Source of the DNA: a virus
DNA length: 30,941 nt
IMG/VR virus record: IMGVR_UViG_3300049595_004411
Location: 1-30,941 of that record
Direction: 5' to 3' (one strand)
Below are positions 8,050 through 30,941 of this stretch, in pieces. Below the pieces are notes generated by a model that saw nothing but the letters and a program-made list of their open reading frames with translations, was not told the DNA's origin and did no database searches. The stretch's first letter is position 1; each line of letters begins with the position of its first letter. The translations under genes were made by a program, and so were the position numbers.

Positions 8050-9678
8050 TTAAGGTGGGCAGCTTCCAAGTGAAACAGTTAATGTCTGAGATTGACCTTG
8101 TGTGGATGTATTACAACATGTACATCCTTGTATTTGTGGTTGGTTTATGTTTAAATAATCTGTGACTTTAACACAACAACTTACATTAGATGGGTTTACA
8201 ATTGTTACAACTGATTGTCCACTAATAACATCTGAACCTGTTATAGTAATACCATTATATGTGTTAGTCACTCCTGTAATATGTTGGCTAATACCTTGAC
8301 CTCTAGAACAAGTTCCAATACTAGGACTTGTACTTGTGTTTTGTTGTGTAGTAGGTGTGATACCTAATATCGTTCCATTTTTAGTAATCTGTGTAGATTG
8401 GGTATAACTACCATTAGCAGGGTTATTACTGAATACTGCAAAATTCAAATTGTCAATTAAATTAAAGGTTATTGTGGTACCTATTGGTAAAGTTGTTGGT
8501 TGGTTCAAGTCGTTAAGAACGGCTACAACAAAATTTATTCTCTTTTGTGATGCCGATATTGTTGTTGTTGTGGCGTTTACCACCAATTTGTAATTAATTG
8601 GTGTTTGATTACTTGTAAGTGTAACCGTGTTTTGTATGATTGTGTTATTCGCATCTTTTGCATATACTGAGTATTGACCAGCATTTAAATTATTAAATAA
8701 TCTACTTAGTCCACCTGAAAAAACGGAAAGTCCGCCATCAATTGACCATAAAATTGGTGCCGTGGCATTTTGAACTTCCATAAATATTGAACCGTTGGTT
8801 TGTCCGACACAAGTAGGATTTGTACCATTCAAGGTTTTGAATGTCATTAACGGAGTAGAACAAGAACCAACATAAGATGTCGTTGGATTAGTATACTGAC
8901 CTATACCGTTGATTTGCCATTGACCAGTAGGTGGTGTACTCGGATTTGATAGTGTTAAAAATTGTGTACCTATCTGTGTAAACCAATAATTATTAGACGA
9001 GTTCCATGAAATTGTAGAAGTAGTCGAACTGAAAGTATTTTTACCGTTAACAACATTTGTTGTTTTGTTGAATTGAACACTACTTGTTGGTCCTTGTAGA
9101 CAAATAGTTTGTGGAACGAATGGTTGGGGGGCTGGCGTTACTGTCGGAGTTGGTGTAGGTGTAGGTGTGGATGGTATTAAAGTACATGTTGTAGTTGCAG
9201 TATAATCCGGCCCTCCGTTAGGCCAATCATAATCCGTAACAGTAATGGTATATATGGTAGTTGGATTAGCATTATTCAGAGTTGCCCCTAAAAACCCGTT
9301 ACTCCATAAAATTTTATATGGAGGTGTTCCCCCACTAACATTTATTGTTATAGTTGATGTAGAAACATTCGGACTACAACTTATGCTTAAAGGTACAATC
9401 GTCAGGATATCACATTCACTTGTTGCGGTTACCCGAACACAAGGATTTGTAGAAATACAAGTAGGACAATCTGTTTGGATGGTAAGTGTGGCTCCAACAG
9501 ATGAGTAAGTTGGCGAACCAGGTACTAATTGTGATGATGGTATAACAATTGTGCATCCCGTAAAATTGTTTGGTATTTGAGCGTAATTAGAACTACCTAT
9601 AGTTAATGGTGCGACCAAACCAGTTAGAGTGAAAGTGATATTACTATCACAACAGGATTTTAAATATGAAATTGCCAT
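8050..9678 (-). CDS. Modular tail adhesin with SprB-like repeats and a PTPTP linker
   Basis: This 542-residue protein is clearly modular. Residues 5-80 hold a Cys-rich module (CCD, then TGCTIVI, then DCPTC) that also ends the preceding 247-residue protein. Residues 98-165 are a SprB-like repeat (SGGTPPYKILWSNG, then YTITVTD). A Pro-Thr linker spans 170-184, followed by a beta domain with cysteines at about 193 and 273. A second SprB-like repeat spans 283-356 (NPTCVGQTNGSI, then LNAGQYSVYAKD). The last 180 residues are beta-rich and end in Cys clusters (GCTCC). SprB repeats are known from flavobacterial surface adhesins, so binding to the host surface is a plausible role. There is no signal peptide, as expected for a cytoplasmically assembled virion part. 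Confidence 0.82.
   Translation of the reverse strand: MAISYLKSCCDSNITFTLTGLVAPLTIGSSNYAQIPNNFTGCTIVIPSSQLVPGSPTYSSVGATLTIQTDCPTCISTNPCVRVTATSECDILTIVPLSISCSPNVSTSTITINVSGGTPPYKILWSNGFLGATLNNANPTTIYTITVTDYDWPNGGPDYTATTTCTLIPSTPTPTPTPTVTPAPQPFVPQTICLQGPTSSVQFNKTTNVVNGKNTFSSTTSTISWNSSNNYWFTQIGTQFLTLSNPSTPPTGQWQINGIGQYTNPTTSYVGSCSTPLMTFKTLNGTNPTCVGQTNGSIFMEVQNATAPILWSIDGGLSVFSGGLSRLFNNLNAGQYSVYAKDANNTIIQNTVTLTSNQTPINYKLVVNATTTTISASQKRINFVVAVLNDLNQPTTLPIGTTITFNLIDNLNFAVFSNNPANGSYTQSTQITKNGTILGITPTTQQNTSTSPSIGTCSRGQGISQHITGVTNTYNGITITGSDVISGQSVVTIVNPSNVSCCVKVTDYLNINQPQIQGCTCCNTSTQGQSQTLTVSLGSCPP
9152..9170. repeat. GGTGTA short tandem repeat
   Basis: About three copies of GGTGTA on the plus strand encode the Pro-Thr linker of the 542-residue protein on the minus strand. 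It parallels the tract at 5018-5053. Such tracts can change length by slippage and so alter linker length. Confidence 0.75.
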
Positions 9679-9743: not shown

Positions 9744-10487
9744 TTAACAAGGGTCAATTTCTTCACAATCATCACAACTTCTCATAATTGGGTTTGGAAA
9801 TACAATTGAATAATTTCTATTGGTTGTTGAATTCCAATCTGTACTACTAACGTATGTTTGATTTGGGGTATCGTAATTGCCAATTACTATTGTACAACCT
9901 GTATATCCTGTACCTGTTCCAGTACCTGATGGTGGTATTTCGACAAACCATGATATATTAGGTTCAAATGTTGATTGAAAATTTTCTTCAAATGTAAAAG
10001 TATAATCATCACAACAAGCACTAAAATATGTAGGTGCAACATTATCATAACACTCTTGGCAGGTGGTGTAACTAACACCCGTAATGACCAAATCAATTGC
10101 CGCGTTATTGGTAAACTGAAAACCTGAGAAAGTCCAACATTGTCCAAAGTTTTCCAATGATACTACATCCCCAAAGTTAAGTATTGGTACGTTTTCTGTA
10201 TACAAACAAACTGAAGTGTCAGCACAATTACAAAAAGTGGAATAAACACCAGGTAATAAAGTACATACCACAGGTATTTCTTTAAGACATGGAACCACAA
10301 GCTCATTAATTTTCAAAGAAATTGCAGGGGCTCCACTGAAAGCATCAGGTAAAGGAATTACTTGTATTGGCGGAACTGTAGATGATATTGTATCTATATA
10401 CACACAATCATTTCCCAAAAAATTACATATTGAAATTTCGTAAGGTGGTGTAAGTCCTGTTATTGATGAAATTATTATGTTTTTCAT
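9744..10487 (-). CDS. Cysteine-rich tail protein with two shared modules
   Basis: The 247-residue protein contains 16 cysteines, many as CxC, CC or CxxC (FCNC, TCQEC, SACCDD, SCDDC). Its N-terminal 70 residues are paralogous to the small plus-strand protein at 4293-4523. Its C-terminal 95 residues (CCDDYTFTF, then YTGCTIVI, then SCDDCEEIDPC) match the N-terminus of the neighbouring 542-residue protein. It is therefore built entirely from modules shared with other genes here. No catalytic motif or membrane segment is visible. It sits between two SprB-repeat proteins with a three-base gap upstream, so it is probably a linker or adhesin subunit of the same tail structure. The cysteines could bind metal or form disulfides after release. 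Confidence 0.78.
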   Translation of the reverse strand: MKNIIISSITGLTPPYEISICNFLGNDCVYIDTISSTVPPIQVIPLPDAFSGAPAISLKINELVVPCLKEIPVVCTLLPGVYSTFCNCADTSVCLYTENVPILNFGDVVSLENFGQCWTFSGFQFTNNAAIDLVITGVSYTTCQECYDNVAPTYFSACCDDYTFTFEENFQSTFEPNISWFVEIPPSGTGTGTGYTGCTIVIGNYDTPNQTYVSSTDWNSTTNRNYSIVFPNPIMRSCDDCEEIDPC

Positions 10488-10490
10488 TTT

Positions 10491-12725
10491 TTAACAACTA
10501 AGACAATTTATCACGTATCCGATTTTTAATTGTACCGTTATTGTTTGGTTTGCCAACCCAGTAGTGGATTCTTCACAACTTGTATTAATTGTAATTGTGT
10601 TGTTACTAACGTCTATTATAACATCTCCGATTCCAGAAACGTTGTTTAATAAACTTTCAACTGCGTTGTACCATTGAGCATCGGTTGGGACTGAAGTTAA
10701 GGTTGTTGCGGTAAAGAAACTTTGACTAAACCCTGTTCCAGCAACGCTTGTGAATGCTGAAAACGTGGCGGAACTAAATAAACAACCGGTACAACCATTT
10801 GTCACATCCAAGTATCCTTCATTGAACATTTTGGAAATTGTTCTTTCGGTTAGTACACCTGTGCTAGTAATTGTACTATCGCAAACTTCAAATAAGGAGT
10901 TGTTAGAGATGATATAATTACCTGTCAGTGTAATGCTTCTTGTTAGAGAACAACCGTCGTCATCGATTACTGTTAAAGAATAAGTTCCTGCAGATAAATT
11001 AGTAACAGTTGTTGTTGTTTGACCATTGACATTCGATGACCAATTCAGAGTGTAAGGAGGATTTCCTTGATAAATGTTGGCATAAATTTGTCCGTTTGAA
11101 CCATTGGTTGAGTTAGTAGGAATCAAAACAAAATCCAATTGTTGACTCGGGTCTATTGTAAAATTTTCAGTTTGTACACAGAATCCTTTGGTGTCCTCAA
11201 TTGTTATTGAATATGACCCTGATGATAAGTTATTAAACGTATATGAAGAAAGAAATGTTGGCGGTGAGGGGGCAATCTCTGTTCCATCTCCACCTTCAAT
11301 AGAATAAACAAAAGGACCGGTTCCTCCCGAACTTTTTGTGATTGTTACAGAACCATTGCTTTGACCACAGGTCACACCTGTAACACTTGATGTGATGTTG
11401 AACAAGTTTGTTGCTTGAACTTCATAGGTTCCGGAAAAAGTACAAATTGAATCTGATATTGTAAGGGTGTAATTATCGGCCAAAAGATTAGTAAAAGTGG
11501 TATTCGTGGTACCATTTCTTTGTTGTAAATTACCGTTTGAACTAATCAATGTATAGGTAAATGTACCAGTACCACCGACTAATGAAACACTTATTGAACC
11601 ATTACTATTATTACAGGTTGTATTAGTGATATTCACCGAACTCACACCAAAACTATTAGGTTGTGTTAAAGTTACAATAGTATTAAAATTACATAATGCA
11701 GAATCAGTAACTTCTATATAGTATGAACCGGCCGTCAATCCTGAAAAAACATAGTTTTGTGAATAACTAACATCTATATATGAATTAGATGGAATGTAAT
11801 ATCTATAAGGAGGTGTTCCGTCTATTACTGTAATCTGTATACTACCATTCGGTTGAAAACATGTTGGTGGAGTTGGTATAACTTCTCCTAAGGTTACTGG
11901 ATTGTTTTGTGAAACGGTTGCCGTTTTAGTTAGTGTACATCCTTGTGAGTCAGTGATTGTAATAGCATATTGACCTGATGTTAATCCTGTTATTGATGTA
12001 CCTGTTAATGGTTGACCTGTTGATTCTAAATATAGGACAGGGTTAACTGATTGCCATTGATATGTGTAAGGGGATACGCCAGTCAAACCGGTAATAAATA
12101 ACCTACCAACACCTGTTGAGGCATTTCCACAATCCGCGTCGTTGACAATATATAACCCATAATCAATTTCAACCGAACTTTGTATAATACAGGTCTCACT
12201 TTTACCTGTACATCCTCCACCATCATTTCCAATTACATAATAGGCACCATCAGGCAACGATTCAAATATATAACTATTTATAACACTTTGTACTGATTGT
12301 AATAACACATCATTTCGATATAAATCAAAAACTACAGTTCCGAAAGAGTTTAATGTAGATGCGCATAACGAACCGTTTTCTATTCCACAAGACGTATCAA
12401 TTATTTTACTTAAACTAACACAAGAACTAGCGGATGAAACATATATATTAATAGTTGAGATGTTATTTTGAGTAGTTGCGGTTGGATTTCCACAACTATC
12501 ATTTATTCTCATTATATATAAACCAGCACTAAGATTATTATATTCTTTTGCGCCGTTATTGATTGTTTCAGTGAATTGACCCGTATCAGGACTTGTTAAA
12601 GGTTGAATCCAAGTTATCGTAATTGGTTCTGCACTTGCACTCAAAAAAAGAGTAAAACCACCTGAACCATTATTTTGACAGTCCCCTGTTACACTAAAAC
12701 TACTAAGATTGGCTGGACAAGACAT
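10491..12725 (-). CDS. SprB-repeat tail adhesin, about seven repeats
   Basis: The 744-residue protein is almost wholly Ig-like SprB-type repeats. The clearest lie at about residues 195-272, 285-355, 365-437, 448-527 and 537-600, with two weaker ones at 10-95 and 105-185. Each has an entry such as TCNNSNGSI, a turn such as GGTGPFVYSI or GTPPYRYYI, and an exit such as LSAGTYSLTVIDDDGCS. SprB repeats occur in the long mobile adhesin of gliding flavobacteria. The final 140 residues are a separate module shared with the end of the preceding 993-residue protein (QWYNAVE, then IGYVINC). There is no signal peptide or type IX sorting domain, so this is a virion protein rather than a host adhesin. Five bases separate it from the upstream gene. 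Confidence 0.85.
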   Translation of the reverse strand: MSCPANLSSFSVTGDCQNNGSGGFTLFLSASAEPITITWIQPLTSPDTGQFTETINNGAKEYNNLSAGLYIMRINDSCGNPTATTQNNISTINIYVSSASSCVSLSKIIDTSCGIENGSLCASTLNSFGTVVFDLYRNDVLLQSVQSVINSYIFESLPDGAYYVIGNDGGGCTGKSETCIIQSSVEIDYGLYIVNDADCGNASTGVGRLFITGLTGVSPYTYQWQSVNPVLYLESTGQPLTGTSITGLTSGQYAITITDSQGCTLTKTATVSQNNPVTLGEVIPTPPTCFQPNGSIQITVIDGTPPYRYYIPSNSYIDVSYSQNYVFSGLTAGSYYIEVTDSALCNFNTIVTLTQPNSFGVSSVNITNTTCNNSNGSISVSLVGGTGTFTYTLISSNGNLQQRNGTTNTTFTNLLADNYTLTISDSICTFSGTYEVQATNLFNITSSVTGVTCGQSNGSVTITKSSGGTGPFVYSIEGGDGTEIAPSPPTFLSSYTFNNLSSGSYSITIEDTKGFCVQTENFTIDPSQQLDFVLIPTNSTNGSNGQIYANIYQGNPPYTLNWSSNVNGQTTTTVTNLSAGTYSLTVIDDDGCSLTRSITLTGNYIISNNSLFEVCDSTITSTGVLTERTISKMFNEGYLDVTNGCTGCLFSSATFSAFTSVAGTGFSQSFFTATTLTSVPTDAQWYNAVESLLNNVSGIGDVIIDVSNNTITINTSCEESTTGLANQTITVQLKIGYVINCLSC

Positions 12726-12730
12726 TTATA

Positions 12731-15712
12731 TTAAGAACAAGATATTGTAAAGTTTATTCCCACATTTATTTTAAATTGTGAATTAAGGTTGGTCCCATCA
12801 CATGTTGTTGTAAATACTGTGACTTGATTTCCTGATATAATATAATCTAAACCATAAATAATTAAACTATCCAATTGAGTTTGTAAAGCAATTAACCATT
12901 GAGATTGAGATGGATAACTTATTCCTTCAGGTAGCCCTATACCAACACCATCAAAGAATTTCTCATTAATTATCACGGTTCCGCCCAAACTTATATTAAC
13001 ATACCAATCAGTATTTATAGTGTTGAAATCACAATTTGAACCTATTGTATTATTGTTAACTACATTATTGAGTACACTACCGAAATTCGAACCTATTGAT
13101 GGATTAGAAGTCCAAGGATAAATATCACAAACGGTATTAGCCTCAGGGCAATCGTAAGTTAAGATTGGTCCAATTAAAGTACATGGGTTACAAGGTACAG
13201 GCACTATTTGACAACCTCTTTGTCTTCTCCAAACGAATTTTTGTCTATGGAAAGCCGAGTTTTCATACTTAACACCAGTATTCCAAATTGTTGTTGCCGG
13301 CATCATCTGTTCTATTAATCTAATCCAATAACTTCCGAGACCTTGCACATAATCAATCATTTTTTGATAAGTAAAAAGGCTGTCTGGAATATTTTGTAAA
13401 TCAACAGATTTGAGATATTTCCAATAAACCGATTCTAAGGTTGGATATCCGCCTGTTTTTCCATTTGTTATAAATTGTCTGTCTCGAACATTAATCATGT
13501 TCTGCCAAAAAGTTTGTGCAAACTCGAAGAATGTTTTCTGAACGGGATTAGGGTCAATTAAGGTTTTATCTAATATTGTTGGATTCAGATAGGTTGGGCA
13601 ATAGCAGTTACCTCCTACGGTATATCCCGTTGATGGTATGGGATAATCATAATTTGAAGATAAAAACCATGCATCATAAGTCAAAGCTTGTCCCGGATTA
13701 AGGTAAACTTCAGTATTTTTAACATTTAAAATCAAGTTTTCATCGTCTACAAAATAAAACGAATTATTTCCATCAGTATTACGCCTTAGTCCTGTTTGAG
13801 AACTTGGCCAACTTTTTTTATTATCTTTAAGTTTTGCCAATGTAAATCCTAAATCACTGTATGGAAAATCCCTAAATCTATCCAAATATCTTTGACCATA
13901 ACTGAAATCACGTAATACGGTTTGTATATTCGGATTTTGACCTGTAAATGTACTGTTGGTTATATCAAAAATTTCGTCGGACCTGTGTTGTACTGTTGAT
14001 TCAAACCATCCCTCACCTAATTGGAAGTAAAAACTTTCAGTGTCTTCGGGGGCTCTTGGGTATCCATTATCATCAACAGGATATTCATCTCTTGTAATAT
14101 TAGAGTCTTCTATATTTGCGGTGATTGTGAAACCTGTAAATTCTCTACCTTGAATTTTAAATAGTACTTCGGGGTCGTAAGCCGGTAATTCTTGATTATA
14201 TGTACCTCCAGTTATACTTGCAAATTCTTGATTGAATTGGCTCATATTTATTTTTTGGTCGGCAACATAAATAGTTTCATTAAATTCGATTAGAGCATCA
14301 GGAGCACCAATTAATTTCAAAAGACCTTCAATTGATTTTCTCGTACCTTTTGATTTAAACAAATAGGCGGAGTTCAAAATTAAATTTCTATAAAATTGAT
14401 AATTTAATTCGTCAGGTGTGTAACTTCTTGATAATCCTAAAAATTGTGATGGTTCGGTCGTTCCAAATACAGAATCTAAAAAGTTTGAGTTAGTTATCGG
14501 TGATATGTTATCTGACCAACCAAGTGTTTGGGCCAAATTTTTTAGAAGTTGTGATGGTATATCATTACCAACGTTGTAGTTTACTGAATTCATATATGCC
14601 AACGCATCTATGAATTTTTTTACTTGGTCAAAACTCCTACCATATATCTGTAATAATTTTGTTATTTTTTGGTCGTCAGTATCGAAATCTTTAAACGCTC
14701 CTGTAGTTAAAAATCTTACAATTAGGTTTGTTTTGAACTGGTCAAAATCCTCGGTTAGACTTGAAAGTTTGTTGACATAAGTATTAAAGCTCGGAGTTCT
14801 AATATCTATATTCCAAAGTCCGTCCTTAGGCCATGTCGCCGACTCAGATGCCAAATAGAACGTACCGTTATCTCTTTCCCTTATGATACTAAATTTTGCA
14901 GTATAAATAGGTGTAATTAATCTGTTTAATAAAAACTTTTCGACCTCGTCAAAATCTTGATTAAAAACCTTTTCAGTGTTTTCATTGTTTGGTTTTATAT
15001 ATAAATCATCGTATGAAATGGATTGACCCGAAAATGGATTTCCAACTACAGTAATGACTAAATTACCTGTTGTAAGTTTTGTTGTTGGAACTAACTTTAA
15101 CAGGTTGTATGATTCATCGTTAGTATACAATGCGTATTTAGTTGCCGAATCCACCATATTTCTCAATGGTGATAATTCTATCTCACTCACGGCAATGTTT
15201 CTTGCGGCATTTGTTGTAAAATCAATCGAAAATGGATTGGATATTTTACTTAAATCCAATGTAAATGTTGTCGAATTATTTACTGAATCAAAAAAGATAT
15301 TGGTTGCGGTTGCACCTGTTGTATAATCCTTTTTTTGAAATGTGGATTCTATGGATGCAGGAAAGAAATTAATAATTTTAGTTAAAGAGACTGACACTCT
15401 TTTTGATAAAGAACCATATTGACTAAAGTTTGTTACTTCACTCAAATCGAAATTTGGAAATACTTGAAAATTTTTTTCGACTATTGCTTTTGATTCCTCA
15501 ATACTTGCAACCCCTAATGAATCTAATGTTATGGGGTCAGAAAAGGTACCTATTATAAAATCCCTGTCACTTTTCTCAGTTATACTTGTGGTAAATTCAA
15601 AATTTCCCTGCGTTAATCCACCTCCCGCAACAAGTTGGAATCCAACCAAATTATCGGAAAATGTATTGTCGGCGGTCGCTTTTTGTGGTGGACAGAGAAA
15701 CTTTTTAGCCAT
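12731..15712 (-). CDS. Large baseplate wedge protein with P2 gpI-like region (probable gp7 counterpart)
   Basis: The 993-residue protein contains a helical region at about residues 315-480. It includes LLQIYGRSFDQVKKFIDALA, PSQLLKNLAQTLGW and YLFKSKGTRKSIEGLLKLIG. The last part resembles the GT-xx-IExLLxLxG pattern of P2 gpI-like baseplate proteins. In contractile tails a gpI/gp7-type protein joins two J/gp6-type proteins to form each wedge, and a J-like gene is upstream here. T4 gp7 has about 1030 residues, a similar length. Beta-rich domains flank this region, and the last 87 residues are a module shared with the SprB-repeat protein. The start overlaps the previous stop as TAATG. The gp7 equivalence is inference from order, length and the I-like part. 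Confidence 0.8.
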   Translation of the reverse strand: MAKKFLCPPQKATADNTFSDNLVGFQLVAGGGLTQGNFEFTTSITEKSDRDFIIGTFSDPITLDSLGVASIEESKAIVEKNFQVFPNFDLSEVTNFSQYGSLSKRVSVSLTKIINFFPASIESTFQKKDYTTGATATNIFFDSVNNSTTFTLDLSKISNPFSIDFTTNAARNIAVSEIELSPLRNMVDSATKYALYTNDESYNLLKLVPTTKLTTGNLVITVVGNPFSGQSISYDDLYIKPNNENTEKVFNQDFDEVEKFLLNRLITPIYTAKFSIIRERDNGTFYLASESATWPKDGLWNIDIRTPSFNTYVNKLSSLTEDFDQFKTNLIVRFLTTGAFKDFDTDDQKITKLLQIYGRSFDQVKKFIDALAYMNSVNYNVGNDIPSQLLKNLAQTLGWSDNISPITNSNFLDSVFGTTEPSQFLGLSRSYTPDELNYQFYRNLILNSAYLFKSKGTRKSIEGLLKLIGAPDALIEFNETIYVADQKINMSQFNQEFASITGGTYNQELPAYDPEVLFKIQGREFTGFTITANIEDSNITRDEYPVDDNGYPRAPEDTESFYFQLGEGWFESTVQHRSDEIFDITNSTFTGQNPNIQTVLRDFSYGQRYLDRFRDFPYSDLGFTLAKLKDNKKSWPSSQTGLRRNTDGNNSFYFVDDENLILNVKNTEVYLNPGQALTYDAWFLSSNYDYPIPSTGYTVGGNCYCPTYLNPTILDKTLIDPNPVQKTFFEFAQTFWQNMINVRDRQFITNGKTGGYPTLESVYWKYLKSVDLQNIPDSLFTYQKMIDYVQGLGSYWIRLIEQMMPATTIWNTGVKYENSAFHRQKFVWRRQRGCQIVPVPCNPCTLIGPILTYDCPEANTVCDIYPWTSNPSIGSNFGSVLNNVVNNNTIGSNCDFNTINTDWYVNISLGGTVIINEKFFDGVGIGLPEGISYPSQSQWLIALQTQLDSLIIYGLDYIISGNQVTVFTTTCDGTNLNSQFKINVGINFTISCS

Positions 15713-16620
15713 TACTGAGTTATATTATTAAAGTTTTTACTGTAATCAATATTATTATCTCTATCTTGTCTAACTTCATAAAGTAAAGTATTGAACTCAT
15801 CTCTAACTTCATACAAGTTATATTGTTTATAAATATTATTATCTGAGTCGTAGATAGTGTATATACCATCATCGAGAGATTTAGTTTGATTACCATAAAG
15901 GGCTATCGCTAATGTAGAAATATCATGTTCAACAATTTCGACCTCAACCGTAACAGGATTAAAAAATGTGTTTGATATAATTACATTTTGATTTGGCTGA
16001 CCTATGTATGGTGTTGCATTAGGTTTGTTACTTGGTGAAGATGATGGCGAAACTGTACAGAAAAGTAAATTAGTTGCACCATCCACATATCTATATCTTA
16101 TTGCCTTTTGTGAACTATTCGTAAGGTTTTCAACGACTGGTTCACAAAAAAATGAAGATGTTATTATTCTGAAAAAATTTGGTATTTTAGCACCTGACGG
16201 GTCTAAATATTCGATTCTAAAACCAACTAGTCCTTGTGCCACAAATTTGTTTTGGAACTGTGATGGGACTTGACTCAAGTCGAAAATTAAACCTTTTACA
16301 TTAGGTAGTGCAGATAAGACGCCACAATCTAAAATTGGAACTCTAATTTGTGCAGGTCTTATATATACGGTGTATATGCCAAGGGCGTTAAATTGTTCTG
16401 CGGGTAATTTAAGATTATATAATCCCCCTAAAATTTCTATATTAGCATTTCCACCCGTATCTCCATTATTGAAGTACGGTTTCAACACATCTTGGGCATT
16501 TAATGTTGTTAATATAAAATTATCTGTCTCATCTCGACTTTCAGTGTAATTTAATATTATTTCTACGTCGGCCGGTGATACATCCGCTGGTCTTATGGTT
16601 CCGTAAGTTCCTGTTGCCAT
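15712..16620 (-). CDS. Tail/baseplate structural protein, family unknown
   Basis: The 302-residue protein is predicted mostly beta. Its N-terminal domain has GTIRPADVSPADVEIILNY, and its middle has IRVPILDCGVL and a Ser/Asn-rich loop (VSPSSSPSNKPN). The C-terminal part is charged and repetitive, with EVRDEFN followed by EVRQDRDN. It is strongly linked to the 993-residue protein by a TAATG stop-start overlap, which suggests the two are made in balanced amounts and interact. A TATTTATA element lies 14 bases before its ATG, so a transcript may begin here. I do not recognise a family; a small wedge component is the likeliest guess. Confidence 0.75.
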   Translation of the reverse strand: MATGTYGTIRPADVSPADVEIILNYTESRDETDNFILTTLNAQDVLKPYFNNGDTGGNANIEILGGLYNLKLPAEQFNALGIYTVYIRPAQIRVPILDCGVLSALPNVKGLIFDLSQVPSQFQNKFVAQGLVGFRIEYLDPSGAKIPNFFRIITSSFFCEPVVENLTNSSQKAIRYRYVDGATNLLFCTVSPSSSPSNKPNATPYIGQPNQNVIISNTFFNPVTVEVEIVEHDISTLAIALYGNQTKSLDDGIYTIYDSDNNIYKQYNLYEVRDEFNTLLYEVRQDRDNNIDYSKNFNNITQ

Positions 16621-25844: not shown

Positions 25845-27683
25845 TCAACTGAAATTAACTGTGGTAAGGTTTTTAACTCTAACTCTTATATCTTTACCAG
25901 GATATCTGATTTGATATGTTTGAGATGGTTCGGCGAATATTGTGTCATCAATTAATTCGATTTGTCTTGTTGTCGAATCAGAATATCTTTGAGAGGTTTG
26001 AGATGATGAGTACTGACCTCCAACCTCGTTGAATACGTCGATAGCCGCAACACTTATTACACCATTTAATGTTTGTATGTTTTTTCTGACCTCAGAAATG
26101 AAAACATTCTGGCCCATTTCTCTTTGACTTGGTGAGAAATAATCATTTACCGTGTTAACAATTTGAGTTATTACACTTCCTTGATTTTGACTCGAGTCCA
26201 AAACAACTGAAATATCAATACTCAAATCTATCACTTGAGCACTTTCAATACTGATATAATCATTTATCATCCTATAATTTGACAAATAATTCGCAATATT
26301 AGTTTTTAGAGTATTTGAAACAGAATTAGTCAATTTACCTGATGTATCGTAGGATAAACACTGAATTTTAATTTTATTTTCTTGTTCTGTAATTGCAACC
26401 TTGGCCGGCGCTCCAAATTGAGATGGCATTGTTTTGATTAGCGATTCATAATCACCGATTGTGACCGCTCTTTTTTGTGCTGAAAAATTGTAAGTAACAA
26501 GATTCCTAACCTCTTCTACGGTAGGTAAATTAGCACCTCCGATTGCCGCGGTAGGATTATTACATCTTAATGAACCAACAGTGGAAACATTTTGGTCCTC
26601 TGATGGGCCATTAACCACAAAATCAACTGTACCTAACTGATTGATTACATTAACACCTAAGTTACTTGAGATACCCCCACCAACTCTATATTGAACAAAT
26701 AATGTGCTATTAGGAGATAAAGTACTTCCCAATGCTAAATTGTTAGAATATTTAGATAAATTGAGTTGGAATCCGTTTGCTGCAAATTCTCTTAACTGTT
26801 CATCTGAAGACTGATTACCACCCCCAAATGTCATTTTAAAAAAACTTTCAGGTGTGTATTCTGTTATGAATTTATTAGAAGTGTTTATATATCTACCGAC
26901 CTTAATACCGGGTGAATCGGAAACCTTAGTTGGGTCCTCAACAAATACTTTATCTTGTATTAGAGCATCAACCTCATACCATCTATTTTCCAATCCAAGA
27001 AATTCTTGGTTAGTTGGAGTTCCGGCAAATTGTGTTCCTTCTTTTAATAAAACAGATGTTACATTCAATACATTTTTTTCAGGTAAAAATGCCTCAAAAA
27101 ATGGTTTCACATCGTTTGGTGATATGACTCTTTTAAAGACTTTAGTAACACCATTTACTACAGTTTCTCTTTTTGTTATTTGGTATCCTGTAATTATTCC
27201 ATTTGAATCGAAATTTGGAATTTTGGTTCTATTTGGGAACCCCTCATTATTGTTTGGTGATGTAAAATCTATATCATATACGGTTTCAAATGTTTGACCT
27301 GCACCCTGAACTTGTGAACCTCTACGTAATATACCACAATATCTAATATCTTCTTTATCACCAAATGCCGGAACTGTGATTGTAAAGTCAACTAACGCAA
27401 CAGATGGTCTTTGACCTGGAACTCTAAGCCCATATGTTCTTGCTATGTTATATACTGATGACCTTTGTTGAGCGTATTGTAAAACAGTTTCTTGAATACT
27501 TCTGTCGATTTGGAATTGTAGATTATCTGAAACCGCGGCATTAAGGTCTAATAAAACAGAAAATACTGAGGCGTCGTTTACGTTAGATAATAAATCAGGA
27601 TAGTAAGTTTTGACAAAATTAATTAATTCTGTTCTTATTGATTGGAAATCTCTAACTGTGTATGATATTTTTTTATTTGCCAT
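25845..27683 (-). CDS. Baseplate wedge protein, J/gp6-like
   Basis: The 612-residue protein has the typical N-terminus of baseplate J/T4 gp6 proteins: YTVRDFQSIRTELINFVKTY, DASVFSVLLDLNAAVSDNLQ and an Arg/Gln-rich helix with YGLRVPGQRPS. The middle has GGGxQ-type turns (FGGGNQSSDEQL), and the C-terminal half has the J-like pattern LVTYNFSAQKRAVTIGDYES and IDLSIDISVVLDS. Gp6 forms the ring that holds the wedges together and drives baseplate opening. T4 gp6 is about 660 residues, so this is near full length. It lies three bases after the gp25-like stop, the same gene order as many contractile phages. The assignment is strong. Confidence 0.92.
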   Translation of the reverse strand: MANKKISYTVRDFQSIRTELINFVKTYYPDLLSNVNDASVFSVLLDLNAAVSDNLQFQIDRSIQETVLQYAQQRSSVYNIARTYGLRVPGQRPSVALVDFTITVPAFGDKEDIRYCGILRRGSQVQGAGQTFETVYDIDFTSPNNNEGFPNRTKIPNFDSNGIITGYQITKRETVVNGVTKVFKRVISPNDVKPFFEAFLPEKNVLNVTSVLLKEGTQFAGTPTNQEFLGLENRWYEVDALIQDKVFVEDPTKVSDSPGIKVGRYINTSNKFITEYTPESFFKMTFGGGNQSSDEQLREFAANGFQLNLSKYSNNLALGSTLSPNSTLFVQYRVGGGISSNLGVNVINQLGTVDFVVNGPSEDQNVSTVGSLRCNNPTAAIGGANLPTVEEVRNLVTYNFSAQKRAVTIGDYESLIKTMPSQFGAPAKVAITEQENKIKIQCLSYDTSGKLTNSVSNTLKTNIANYLSNYRMINDYISIESAQVIDLSIDISVVLDSSQNQGSVITQIVNTVNDYFSPSQREMGQNVFISEVRKNIQTLNGVISVAAIDVFNEVGGQYSSSQTSQRYSDSTTRQIELIDDTIFAEPSQTYQIRYPGKDIRVRVKNLTTVNFS

Positions 27684-27686
27684 ATC

Positions 27687-28145
27687 TTATAAATTTATAA
27701 TTACGAAATCGGAACTTTCAAAAGCGCTTGATGTTACCTGGTAGTCTATTTTAACTCTTGCGGTGTGTTCTTTAGTACCAATACCTGGTACTCTGAATAC
27801 TCTTTGGTCTCCACTTATTACAGTTCTATTTTCACTTTCTTCTTCGGTTGAAGCATCATAAACCTGTATGCTTGTTATTTTTAGATTAGGTATGTATGTG
27901 GTAACCGATTCTCTAATTTCAGCCTCTAGTTGTGCAAAAGTAGGTCCATCCAAAGGTTCAAAAATGTATTCATATAATCTAGTACCAAAATCAGGTAAAA
28001 AATATCTTGTACCTTTTCTAGTTAATAATAGATGTATTAAATCTGTTCTGATTTCTTCATCCGGTGTATCTGATAAATCTAAATACCTACCGTCAAAAGA
28101 ATCTCTGAATGGGAAATTTATACCATATGTTTTGCCATTTGCCAT
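27687..28145 (-). CDS. gp25-like baseplate wedge protein
   Basis: The 152-residue protein matches the gp25/GPW family. It has an N-terminal GINFPFRDS, then DEEIRTDLIHLLLTRKGTRY (the conserved helix and RKGxR-type turn), then LPDFGTRLYEYIFEPLDGPT (the PxFGxxL...FEP signature), followed by the helix LEAEIRESVTTYIPNLKITS. Gp25 is a core wedge component that primes sheath assembly; the old lysozyme label does not imply active enzyme. The length is close to T4 gp25 (about 130). It is the first gene of the tail block, with a TATTTATA element four bases before its ATG and the block running to 5793. Confidence 0.93.
   Translation of the reverse strand: MANGKTYGINFPFRDSFDGRYLDLSDTPDEEIRTDLIHLLLTRKGTRYFLPDFGTRLYEYIFEPLDGPTFAQLEAEIRESVTTYIPNLKITSIQVYDASTEEESENRTVISGDQRVFRVPGIGTKEHTARVKIDYQVTSSAFESSDFVIINL
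27688..27695 (-). promoter_or_regulatory. AATTTATA element four bases before the J/gp6-like start
   Basis: Minus-strand AATTTATA-AGAT-ATG. Same spacing as the elements before 28145, 28935 and 30265, but lying over the end of the gp25-like gene. Such close spacing suggests a translation-start element rather than a promoter. Confidence 0.3.
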
Positions 28146-28947: not shown

Positions 28948-29568
28948 CTACGGTGTTATCCATTTTTCTCCTTCCCAATATTCAACACCAGTTATTTCTA
29001 ACTTATAAGGAAAATAGTCTTTGTAGGATTCATATATATATAAATAATTTTTTCCTTGTGTTTTTCCGTAATTACTTAACGATAATATTGAATCTTTTCC
29101 AAGTGAAAATTTAAACATGTTTTGTATAAACGATGTTTCCAATCCTAATAATGCGTTTTCGAATTCCCTAAATCTAGTGTATGCAACAACCTCATTATCA
29201 AATTTAACTTCCATGATTTTTAAATCATCAAAACTTGAGTTGTTATTGTAACTATCAAATAAATCAAAATTCTTTTCCTTAAAATAATTTGTAAAAAACA
29301 AATCTACCTCAGTTTTTTTATCAATATAATTAAAAATACTAATTTTTAATTGTGATAATATTTTTTTTCTTTTGTATGATAAAACTATTTTATCATTATT
29401 TATTCGACAACTTTTGGATTGATACCAATAAAGTGGTGGTTGAAGGTTTGGTAAGAAACCAAGTTCTAAAAGTTCATGTTCTTTTTCCCCTTCAGGAATT
29501 GCAAATGCCTCACAAAAAACTCTATCATTTTGAACATGACCGTGTAAATGGTCAAAGATTATTCTCAT
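28948..29568 (-). CDS. Arginyl/leucyl-tRNA-protein transferase-like (GNAT-type) protein
   Basis: The 206-residue protein aligns by eye to bacterial Bpt/ATE transferases. ELLELGFLPN, then YWYQSKSCRI, resembles their ELVRxGFRR and YRPYCDGCRAC region. MEVKFDNEVVAYTRFREFEN matches the start of the GNAT core. SLGKDSILSLSNYGKTQGKN, then YLYIYESY, then YKLEITGVEYWEGEKW matches the SxGxYxxLxxIxxAxxxGLPYVYLGY...YKARFRPxE...GxW core. These enzymes move Leu or Arg from tRNA to protein N-termini, marking targets for degradation by ClpSP. The N-terminal CxxC pair is reduced to one Cys here, so activity is uncertain. It overlaps the upstream unknown gene by 17 bases, which implies coupling. A generic GNAT acetyltransferase is the alternative. 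Confidence 0.55.
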   Translation of the reverse strand: MRIIFDHLHGHVQNDRVFCEAFAIPEGEKEHELLELGFLPNLQPPLYWYQSKSCRINNDKIVLSYKRKKILSQLKISIFNYIDKKTEVDLFFTNYFKEKNFDLFDSYNNNSSFDDLKIMEVKFDNEVVAYTRFREFENALLGLETSFIQNMFKFSLGKDSILSLSNYGKTQGKNYLYIYESYKDYFPYKLEITGVEYWEGEKWITP

Positions 29569-30265
29569 TTTTGTATTTTAAGTCTAAGTTATCGTATTCT
29601 TCAGAACGTTCCTTATTTGATTCCCCAGCTTCTAAATTAGTATGGTCGTAATTAAAAACGTCAGTATCAGGAGTTACCCACCTTCCATTCCTTTCCGCAG
29701 TCCAAAGTGTAGTATTATATTTTCTATTTATAACAATATCTTGTTTAACAGTGAAAGATGGGTCGTGCATTATTAAACGATTGTTTGGTTGAATTGCGAA
29801 ATTACCATTATCCATTTGAATAAAATGTCCACATTTATGCTGTGATGGGAATTCACTTAAACCAAAATCAGTATCACTCATATCGTCTGAACTTCCCCAA
29901 TCTAATGTAAATAAATAACGTCCCGAATATTGAACCCTTCTTCTTGATGTAAACTTACAAGTTTTATTTTTCAAAATAGGAAATGCGGTTACTCCAACAT
30001 GATAAGTAAACGAATCCCATAATACTAATTCATCTAATTCTTGTTCAGGTGCATCTTCTTTCCAACAAAAAGCATGTATTGGCATTCTCCACCACAATCC
30101 ACCATCTTCCATCATAAAATGGAATAATGGTGCTTGAGCAGGTATTGACGACATTCCAAAAATATAACATGGAAATTTTTTATCAAAGGAATCTTCTTGA
30201 TTTCTTAAAAAGTTACCTCTTATATATGCCTCAACAATAGGTATTGGCGTGTTTAAATACGACAT
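29552..30265 (-). CDS. Conserved-looking phage protein of unknown function
   Basis: The 237-residue protein has dense aromatic and acidic motifs that look conserved. These are FPCYIFGMSSIPAQAPLFHF, MEDGGLWWRMPIHAFCWK and VLWDSFTYHVGVTAF. After them come a basic patch (FTSRRRVQYSGRY), an acidic DWGSSDDMSDTDFG and a His/Cys pair (QHKCGHFIQ). The C-terminal 35 residues are highly charged and probably disordered. No known domain is recognised and there is no signal peptide. It lies between NrdA (21-base gap) and the transferase-like gene (17-base overlap), so the two are likely translated together and may act together. Confidence 0.75.
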   Translation of the reverse strand: MSYLNTPIPIVEAYIRGNFLRNQEDSFDKKFPCYIFGMSSIPAQAPLFHFMMEDGGLWWRMPIHAFCWKEDAPEQELDELVLWDSFTYHVGVTAFPILKNKTCKFTSRRRVQYSGRYLFTLDWGSSDDMSDTDFGLSEFPSQHKCGHFIQMDNGNFAIQPNNRLIMHDPSFTVKQDIVINRKYNTTLWTAERNGRWVTPDTDVFNYDHTNLEAGESNKERSEEYDNLDLKYKNENNL

Positions 30266-30286: not shown

Positions 30287-30941
30287 TTAAGATGAACATC
30301 CAAAACATTCGACCAAACTACTGTCGGGTCTTGGAGGTAAGTTCATTTTACTGTAATCAACATCAGGTAATGGTTGTGGTTTTGACTCTTTACTAATATC
30401 AACCGCCAAGTGTTTTGCCCCTGTTGATATAGCCTTTGTTCTAACGTAATAACACATAGTTTTTAATCCGTTTTCCCAAGCCCTAAAGTGAGATGAAGTG
30501 ATTTTTGATACTGTTGGATTTGCCAAATAGATATTCATTGATTGAGATTGGTCGATAAATGGTGCTCTATCAGATGCCATATCAATTAATTCTTTTTGTG
30601 AAATCTCCCAAATCGTTTTGTATTTTTTCAACAAATGTTCAATTCTTTTTACTTTTTTGTTGTAGTTTTTATCCTCAGCGTCCAAGTATTTGTTGAAATT
30701 AATTGATTGGATTGAACCTTCATTTATAATAATTTCGTTTTTAACTTGTTCGGTCCAAATACCAATTTTTTCAAAGTCGGTAATTAGATATTTGTTAACA
30801 ATCATGATTTCTCCACCAACAACTCGTCTGTTAAATAATGCTGAGTGAGCGGGTTCTGTCATTTCATAAGACCCTGTGATTTTAGCTGATGACGCAACTG
30901 GCATCTGAGCGGTGGTAAGTGAATTACAAACACCAAAGAAT
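30287..30941 (-). CDS. nrdA: Ribonucleotide reductase large subunit, C-terminal part (runs off right edge)
   Basis: The frame stays open to the window edge, so the ATG at 30904 is internal. The visible 217 residues contain the class I NrdA signatures NSLTTAQMPVASSA (NSLxTAxMPTAS-type), GGEIMIVNKYL and RAPFIDQSQSMNIYLANPT. Next comes GLKTMCYYVRTKA, whose YY pair fits the radical-transfer tyrosines (Y730/Y731 in E. coli). The end ECFGCSS carries the CxxC that shuttles electrons from thioredoxin or glutaredoxin. NrdA reduces ribonucleoside diphosphates to make DNA precursors, together with NrdB. The active-site cysteines lie upstream, beyond the window. NrdB is not in view. This is typical of T4-type phages. 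Confidence 0.93.
   Translation of the reverse strand, partial: FFGVCNSLTTAQMPVASSAKITGSYEMTEPAHSALFNRRVVGGEIMIVNKYLITDFEKIGIWTEQVKNEIIINEGSIQSINFNKYLDAEDKNYNKKVKRIEHLLKKYKTIWEISQKELIDMASDRAPFIDQSQSMNIYLANPTVSKITSSHFRAWENGLKTMCYYVRTKAISTGAKHLAVDISKESKPQPLPDVDYSKMNLPPRPDSSLVECFGCSS

Follow-up and report, generated by a model that had tools for sequence, protein, structure and literature searches.

A seven-repeat SprB-type Ig-like protein encoded in the baseplate gene cluster of a family of uncultured phages is a candidate virion arm

Ig-like domains are known components of phage virions. The domain assignment has a precedent: an orthologue of the protein described here (A0A6J5LD72, 714 aa), encoded by an uncultured Caudovirales phage, is already named "SprB repeat" in UniProt. 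The orthologue, from a different, uncultured phage, matches over the full length (Foldseek E 6e-61, 33% identity) and is annotated by domain only. We know of no functional description of it, and a literature search found no paper on A0A6J5LD72 or on a phage SprB-repeat protein. Weak but significant profile matches link our protein to a T5-type decoration protein (5lxk) and to neck whiskers gp24 (9occ). These phage Ig-like proteins match over a single domain only and are located on the head or neck.

Outside phages, the same ~84-aa repeat with the same two-cysteine signature occurs in secreted SprB-type proteins of Bacteroidota, including SprB itself. Those sampled are repeat-rich and more homogeneous, whereas the phage protein has a fixed set of seven repeats and neither a signal peptide nor a T9SS tail. 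SprB repeats are a general extracellular Ig-like module of Bacteroidota. One is carried by a GH107 fucoidanase (PMC7698502) and others occur in T9SS substrates encoded beside toxin genes (PMC7073777), so the name "SprB" does not imply gliding. For the beta-sandwich repeat chain, the best PDB fold matches are to Aureispira GhpA (9flp, 9fly and 9flw; E 3e-18), a weapon on the bacterial cell surface, several thousand residues long, that is 15-18% identical and, unlike the phage protein, has no equivalent of its C-terminal domain (CTD) and no baseplate context. The likeness to this grappling-hook shaft hints, by analogy only, at a mechanical, extended role. The 642-kb phage LR756502.1 encodes a 1675-aa protein with 14 matches to the Pfam SprB family (PF13573) and 28.8% identity to our protein over aa 45-592. 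Its repeats (L055, LR756502.1:515422-518520) are homogenised (mean 47%) far more than those of the family described here, it has no CTD match, and the gp25-like match in that genome is ~300 kb away and unlinked. What is new here is a whole phage family with a Bacteroidota SprB-type Ig chain, in which the seven repeats are fixed over deep divergence, Cys pairs are invariant, the baseplate position is conserved and marked by a domain shared with a neighbour, and likely receptor-binding proteins are encoded alongside.

The analysed stretch (the window) comprises 30,941 nucleotides and is a linear virus record of IMG/VR. The protein of interest and its parts are as follows:

10491-12725, minus strand: 744-aa protein, seven SprB-type Ig-like repeats plus CTD (ORF from ATG; PF13573)
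12435-12701, minus strand: repeat D1, aa 9-97, with the invariant GDC(Q/E)NN motif (profile cross-matches, alignment)
12174-12434, minus strand: repeat D2, aa 98-184 (profile cross-matches)
11901-12173, minus strand: repeat D3, aa 185-275 (profile cross-matches)
11661-11900, minus strand: repeat D4, aa 276-355, the best Pfam SprB stretch (PF13573, profile cross-matches)
11412-11660, minus strand: repeat D5, aa 356-438, the fastest evolving of the repeats (PF13573 on DNA, profile cross-matches)
11145-11411, minus strand: repeat D6, aa 439-527 (PF13573 on DNA, profile cross-matches)
10917-11144, minus strand: repeat D7, aa 528-603 (profile cross-matches)
10494-10916, minus strand: CTD, aa 604-744, alpha/beta, 140 aa, unrelated to the repeats (AlphaFold model)

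PF13573, which has its curated cut-off at 28 bits, matches the 744-aa protein at 71.7 bits (E 3.8e-20), and all 27 aligned relatives have a SprB match. On DNA, three single repeats exceed this cut-off (11793-11876, 11538-11636 and 11283-11393) and none of 14 control genomes gave a match. The repeats show the SprB pattern NGS...GGTxPY...GxYxVxVxDxxGC and its Cys pair. The SprB-type identity proposed in an initial sequence-only reading is borne out by the HMM. When domain profiles from the family alignment were matched against one another, the repeats proved mutually homologous and exactly seven in number, each of ~80-90 aa (cross-matches 1e-7 to 1e-20; best E for composition-shuffled repeats 0.0013), and the CTD profile matched none of them. 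D1 and D2 have diverged furthest, in line with the earlier count of about seven, five of them clear and two weaker, and the repeats do fill most of the protein (residues 9-603 of 744). An AlphaFold model (mean pLDDT 77) has beta-sandwich domains D1-D7 in a chain, then the alpha/beta CTD; with a pTM of 0.35, it gives the domains and not their arrangement.

The 744-aa protein is encoded inside a conserved baseplate gene cluster, as the first reading had recognised. The upstream genes that place it there are:

27687-28145, minus strand: gp25-like baseplate wedge protein (GPW_gp25; domain match)
25845-27683, minus strand: gp6/Baseplate_J baseplate wedge protein (domain match)
12731-15712, minus strand: 993-aa protein directly upstream of the 744 gene, putative baseplate component (synteny, alignment)
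12734-13087, minus strand: C-terminal part of the 993-aa protein, a homologue of the 744-aa protein's CTD (HMM, hhalign, topology)

The gp25 and gp6/Baseplate_J homologues lie ~15 kb upstream of the 744 gene on the same strand. Searching viral contigs with an alignment of five sequences recovered 49 loci, in all of which the 744 homologue directly follows the gene for a ~990-aa baseplate-cluster protein. The order ...616-274-398-302-993-744 (numbers are the lengths of the window proteins) is invariant in all viral loci. The most conserved protein of the cluster is that of 302 aa (15712-16620, minus strand; 69-95% identity), which has no Pfam or PHROGs family match. The spacing of ~15 kb between gp25 and the SprB gene recurs in relatives' contigs of 199 and 321 kb, which places very large phages in the family. 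Two relatives, L046 (321,139 bases) and L052 (321,283 bases), suggest jumbo phages within the group.

An alignment of 27 sequences, 34-80% identical to the window protein, has all seven repeats and the CTD in every member, with no repeat gained or lost; repeat number as a length ruler was discarded for want of any variation. Three of the 27 have an added C-terminal extension with Pro/Thr linkers. All relatives are from uncultured phages. We found no relative of the whole 744-aa family in cellular genome contigs (genome_contigs search), and in 50,697 phage records SprB-like matches were confined to uncultured huge phages. The 744 gene can serve as a marker of these large uncultured phages, which form a widespread group.

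The CTD ties the protein to its upstream neighbour. With a family HMM, the 993-aa protein matches the CTD through its own final ~100 residues (best E 3.5e-8), and an hhalign profile-profile comparison of the two gave a probability of 95.5 (E 1.4e-8). The kinship was settled by these deeper profiles, and not by a BLASTP comparison of the 744- and 993-aa proteins or by hhalign with five close sequences each. Two separate models predict the same order in both: helix, two long strands, helix, three strands. As the adjacent 744 and 993 genes end in the same domain, it looks like a docking or assembly module, and the results suggest that the two proteins share such a function. The remainder of the 993-aa protein gave nothing significant in PHROGs or in PDB sequence or fold searches, and its model is poor except for aa 100-330 and the C-terminus.

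The repeats are old. Mean identity between repeats within one phage protein is 26%, against a median of means of 41% in host proteins (7-27 full repeats, counting those with at least 7), a sample that was picked by similarity to the consensus and therefore favours homogeneous proteins. In the repeat tree, phage repeats from the same position are monophyletic for each of D1-D4 and D7 (support 0.89-0.99), while the branching of D5 and D6 is not settled. Distances between 744-aa proteins track those between 993-aa proteins (r 0.97; the pairs are not independent). Because the repeats are orthologous by position, little alike within a protein and diverge in step with the 993 gene, the seven-repeat architecture is judged to be old and vertically inherited.

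A consensus SprB query found 80 loci in cellular genomes; where their titles name an organism, it belongs to the Bacteroidota. Scored with a profile made from phage repeats only, host repeats reach up to 71 bits, which falls within the phage range of 47-79 bits; phage and host therefore have the entire repeat in common. Both cysteines are present in 79% of phage repeats and 86% of host repeats. It had been suggested that a comparison with host sequences would tell whether the repeats came by capture from hosts. Recent capture is contradicted: phage repeats cluster by position across phages and not with host repeats, and identity within a protein is low. SprB repeats represent an old exchange between phages and Bacteroidota and not a gliding-specific part.

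On balance, and at only slightly better than even confidence, we read the 744-aa protein as a virion baseplate arm of seven SprB-type Ig-like domains with a CTD related to the 993-aa protein. The first reading had offered a receptor-binding arm or a spacer. An arm or spacer agrees with a protein that is fixed, alignable from end to end and correlated with the 993-aa protein. The receptor-binding part fares less well, being less likely for this protein than for its downstream neighbours:

9744-10487, minus strand: 247-aa protein, weakly similar in its C-terminal half to the 542-aa protein's Cys-rich domain (sequence comparison)
8050-9678, minus strand: 542-aa protein, candidate receptor-binding protein (PF13573 E 5.1e-9, alignment)

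The 542-aa protein begins with a Cys-rich N-domain that stays constant, followed by a first SprB repeat, a Pro/Thr linker, a region that varies and another SprB repeat. This pattern of an anchor plus an exchangeable C-terminal tip is absent from the 744-aa protein. In other clades the genes after 744 (247 and 542 aa) are replaced, reduced or missing, and in the more distant clades conservation of the 247-aa protein is limited to aa 1-60 to 1-79. The constant N-terminus, Pro/Thr linker and variable tip make the 542-aa protein, judged by its sequence, the better receptor-binding candidate, and this layout together with the turnover of the downstream genes leads us to place specificity downstream of 744. 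The 744 family in this way points to the neighbouring genes that are likely to encode receptor-binding proteins. The Cys-rich domain, CCD...GC..V...C..C with Pro/Thr linkers, recurs in the 247-aa protein (9744-10487, minus strand) and in downstream genes of three relatives (L013, L040 and L031); the evidence that equates the Cys-rich extension of L013 and L040 with the domain of the 542-aa protein is only suggestive.

It is unlikely, though worth weighing, that the 744-aa protein is itself a receptor-binding fibre whose repeats bind host surface glycans or proteins. Between the window and one relative (L008), its pN is 0.128, compared with 0.031-0.096 for the upstream genes compared and 0.142 for the 542-aa protein. 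This non-synonymous divergence, which among the compared cluster genes is exceeded only by that of the 542-aa protein, would fit a surface in contact with the host (dN/dS values were not used because synonymous sites are saturated). Host adhesins use SprB-type repeats, and the Pro/Thr-linker extensions of three relatives look like added tips. However, the protein has no hypervariable or swapped module, always has seven repeats, is alignable end to end and is co-inherited with a baseplate gene, and the variable-tip pattern is found in the downstream genes instead.

If the protein is a baseplate arm, its conserved ends, the N-terminal GDCQNN region and the CTD, probably dock, one to the baseplate and one to the 247- and 542-aa proteins. 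The seven repeats would set the reach of the arm and would present an Ig surface of Bacteroidota type that may be stapled by disulfides. Specificity would lie mainly in the downstream, fast-changing Cys-rich and SprB proteins, and the arm would sit between the baseplate and these variable recognition proteins.

A decoration or whisker protein (Hoc-like or T5 pb10-like) that happens to be encoded beside baseplate genes is a rather improbable alternative. The T5-type, neck-whisker and Hoc-like matches show that such Ig domains occur on virions, a capsid location is conceivable, and some room is left for this role; the Hoc-like family phrog_3945 is matched by 10 of the 27 members, the window protein not among them. 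These matches nevertheless cover a generic Ig domain only, and both the synteny with gp25 and gp6 and the CTD in common with the 993-aa neighbour favour the baseplate arm over decoration.

The baseplate-arm reading could be extended to a distinct class of Bacteroidota-phage arms, defined by seven Cys-paired SprB repeats and a duplicated baseplate docking domain (the CTD), that touch the host layer of SprB-repeat adhesins first, before the variable tips; we regard this as highly speculative.

The proposal that the repeats mimic or contact gliding adhesins found no support. The 744-aa protein lacks a signal peptide (its first 30 residues contain no K/R, and 15-mer hydropathy peaks at 1.2) and has, by Por_Secre_tail search, no C-terminal T9SS sorting domain, which upholds what had been read from the sequence. 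Por_Secre_tail matches in 11 members were considered as a sign of T9SS secretion and set aside, as those located are inside Ig-like repeats and below the cut-off. The gene neighbourhood in virus contigs is that of gp25 and gp6 and not one of gliding or T9SS genes, and no tie of the protein to SprB, RemA or T9SS was found. That the repeats engage or imitate SprB gliding adhesins, for example to ride moving adhesins or avoid exclusion, is the least probable reading: host repeats do score within the phage range on the phage-only profile, but SprB repeats are general in Bacteroidota extracellular proteins, the phage repeats are old, position-specific and no near copy of any sampled host repeat, and no gliding-specific domain was found.

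Bacteroidota typically have gene starts with A-rich leaders and no Shine-Dalgarno enrichment. In the phage, a Shine-Dalgarno sequence precedes 7 of 179 starts, compared with 7.5 in shuffles, and start leaders are A-rich. Together with the Bacteroidota-type repeats, this circumstantial evidence indicates that the host of the phage family is probably a member of the Bacteroidota.

Directly before the baseplate genes are a gene for a PHROG ferredoxin family protein (29552-30265, minus strand; phrog_3704, E 2e-50) and, adjoining it, a partial gene for a ribonucleotide reductase large subunit (30287-30940, minus strand). All 27 phage proteins keep the Cys pairs of D2-D6 without exception. Phage proteins are assembled in the reducing cytoplasm, and the invariance of these pairs despite this points to possible disulfides that would form after lysis.
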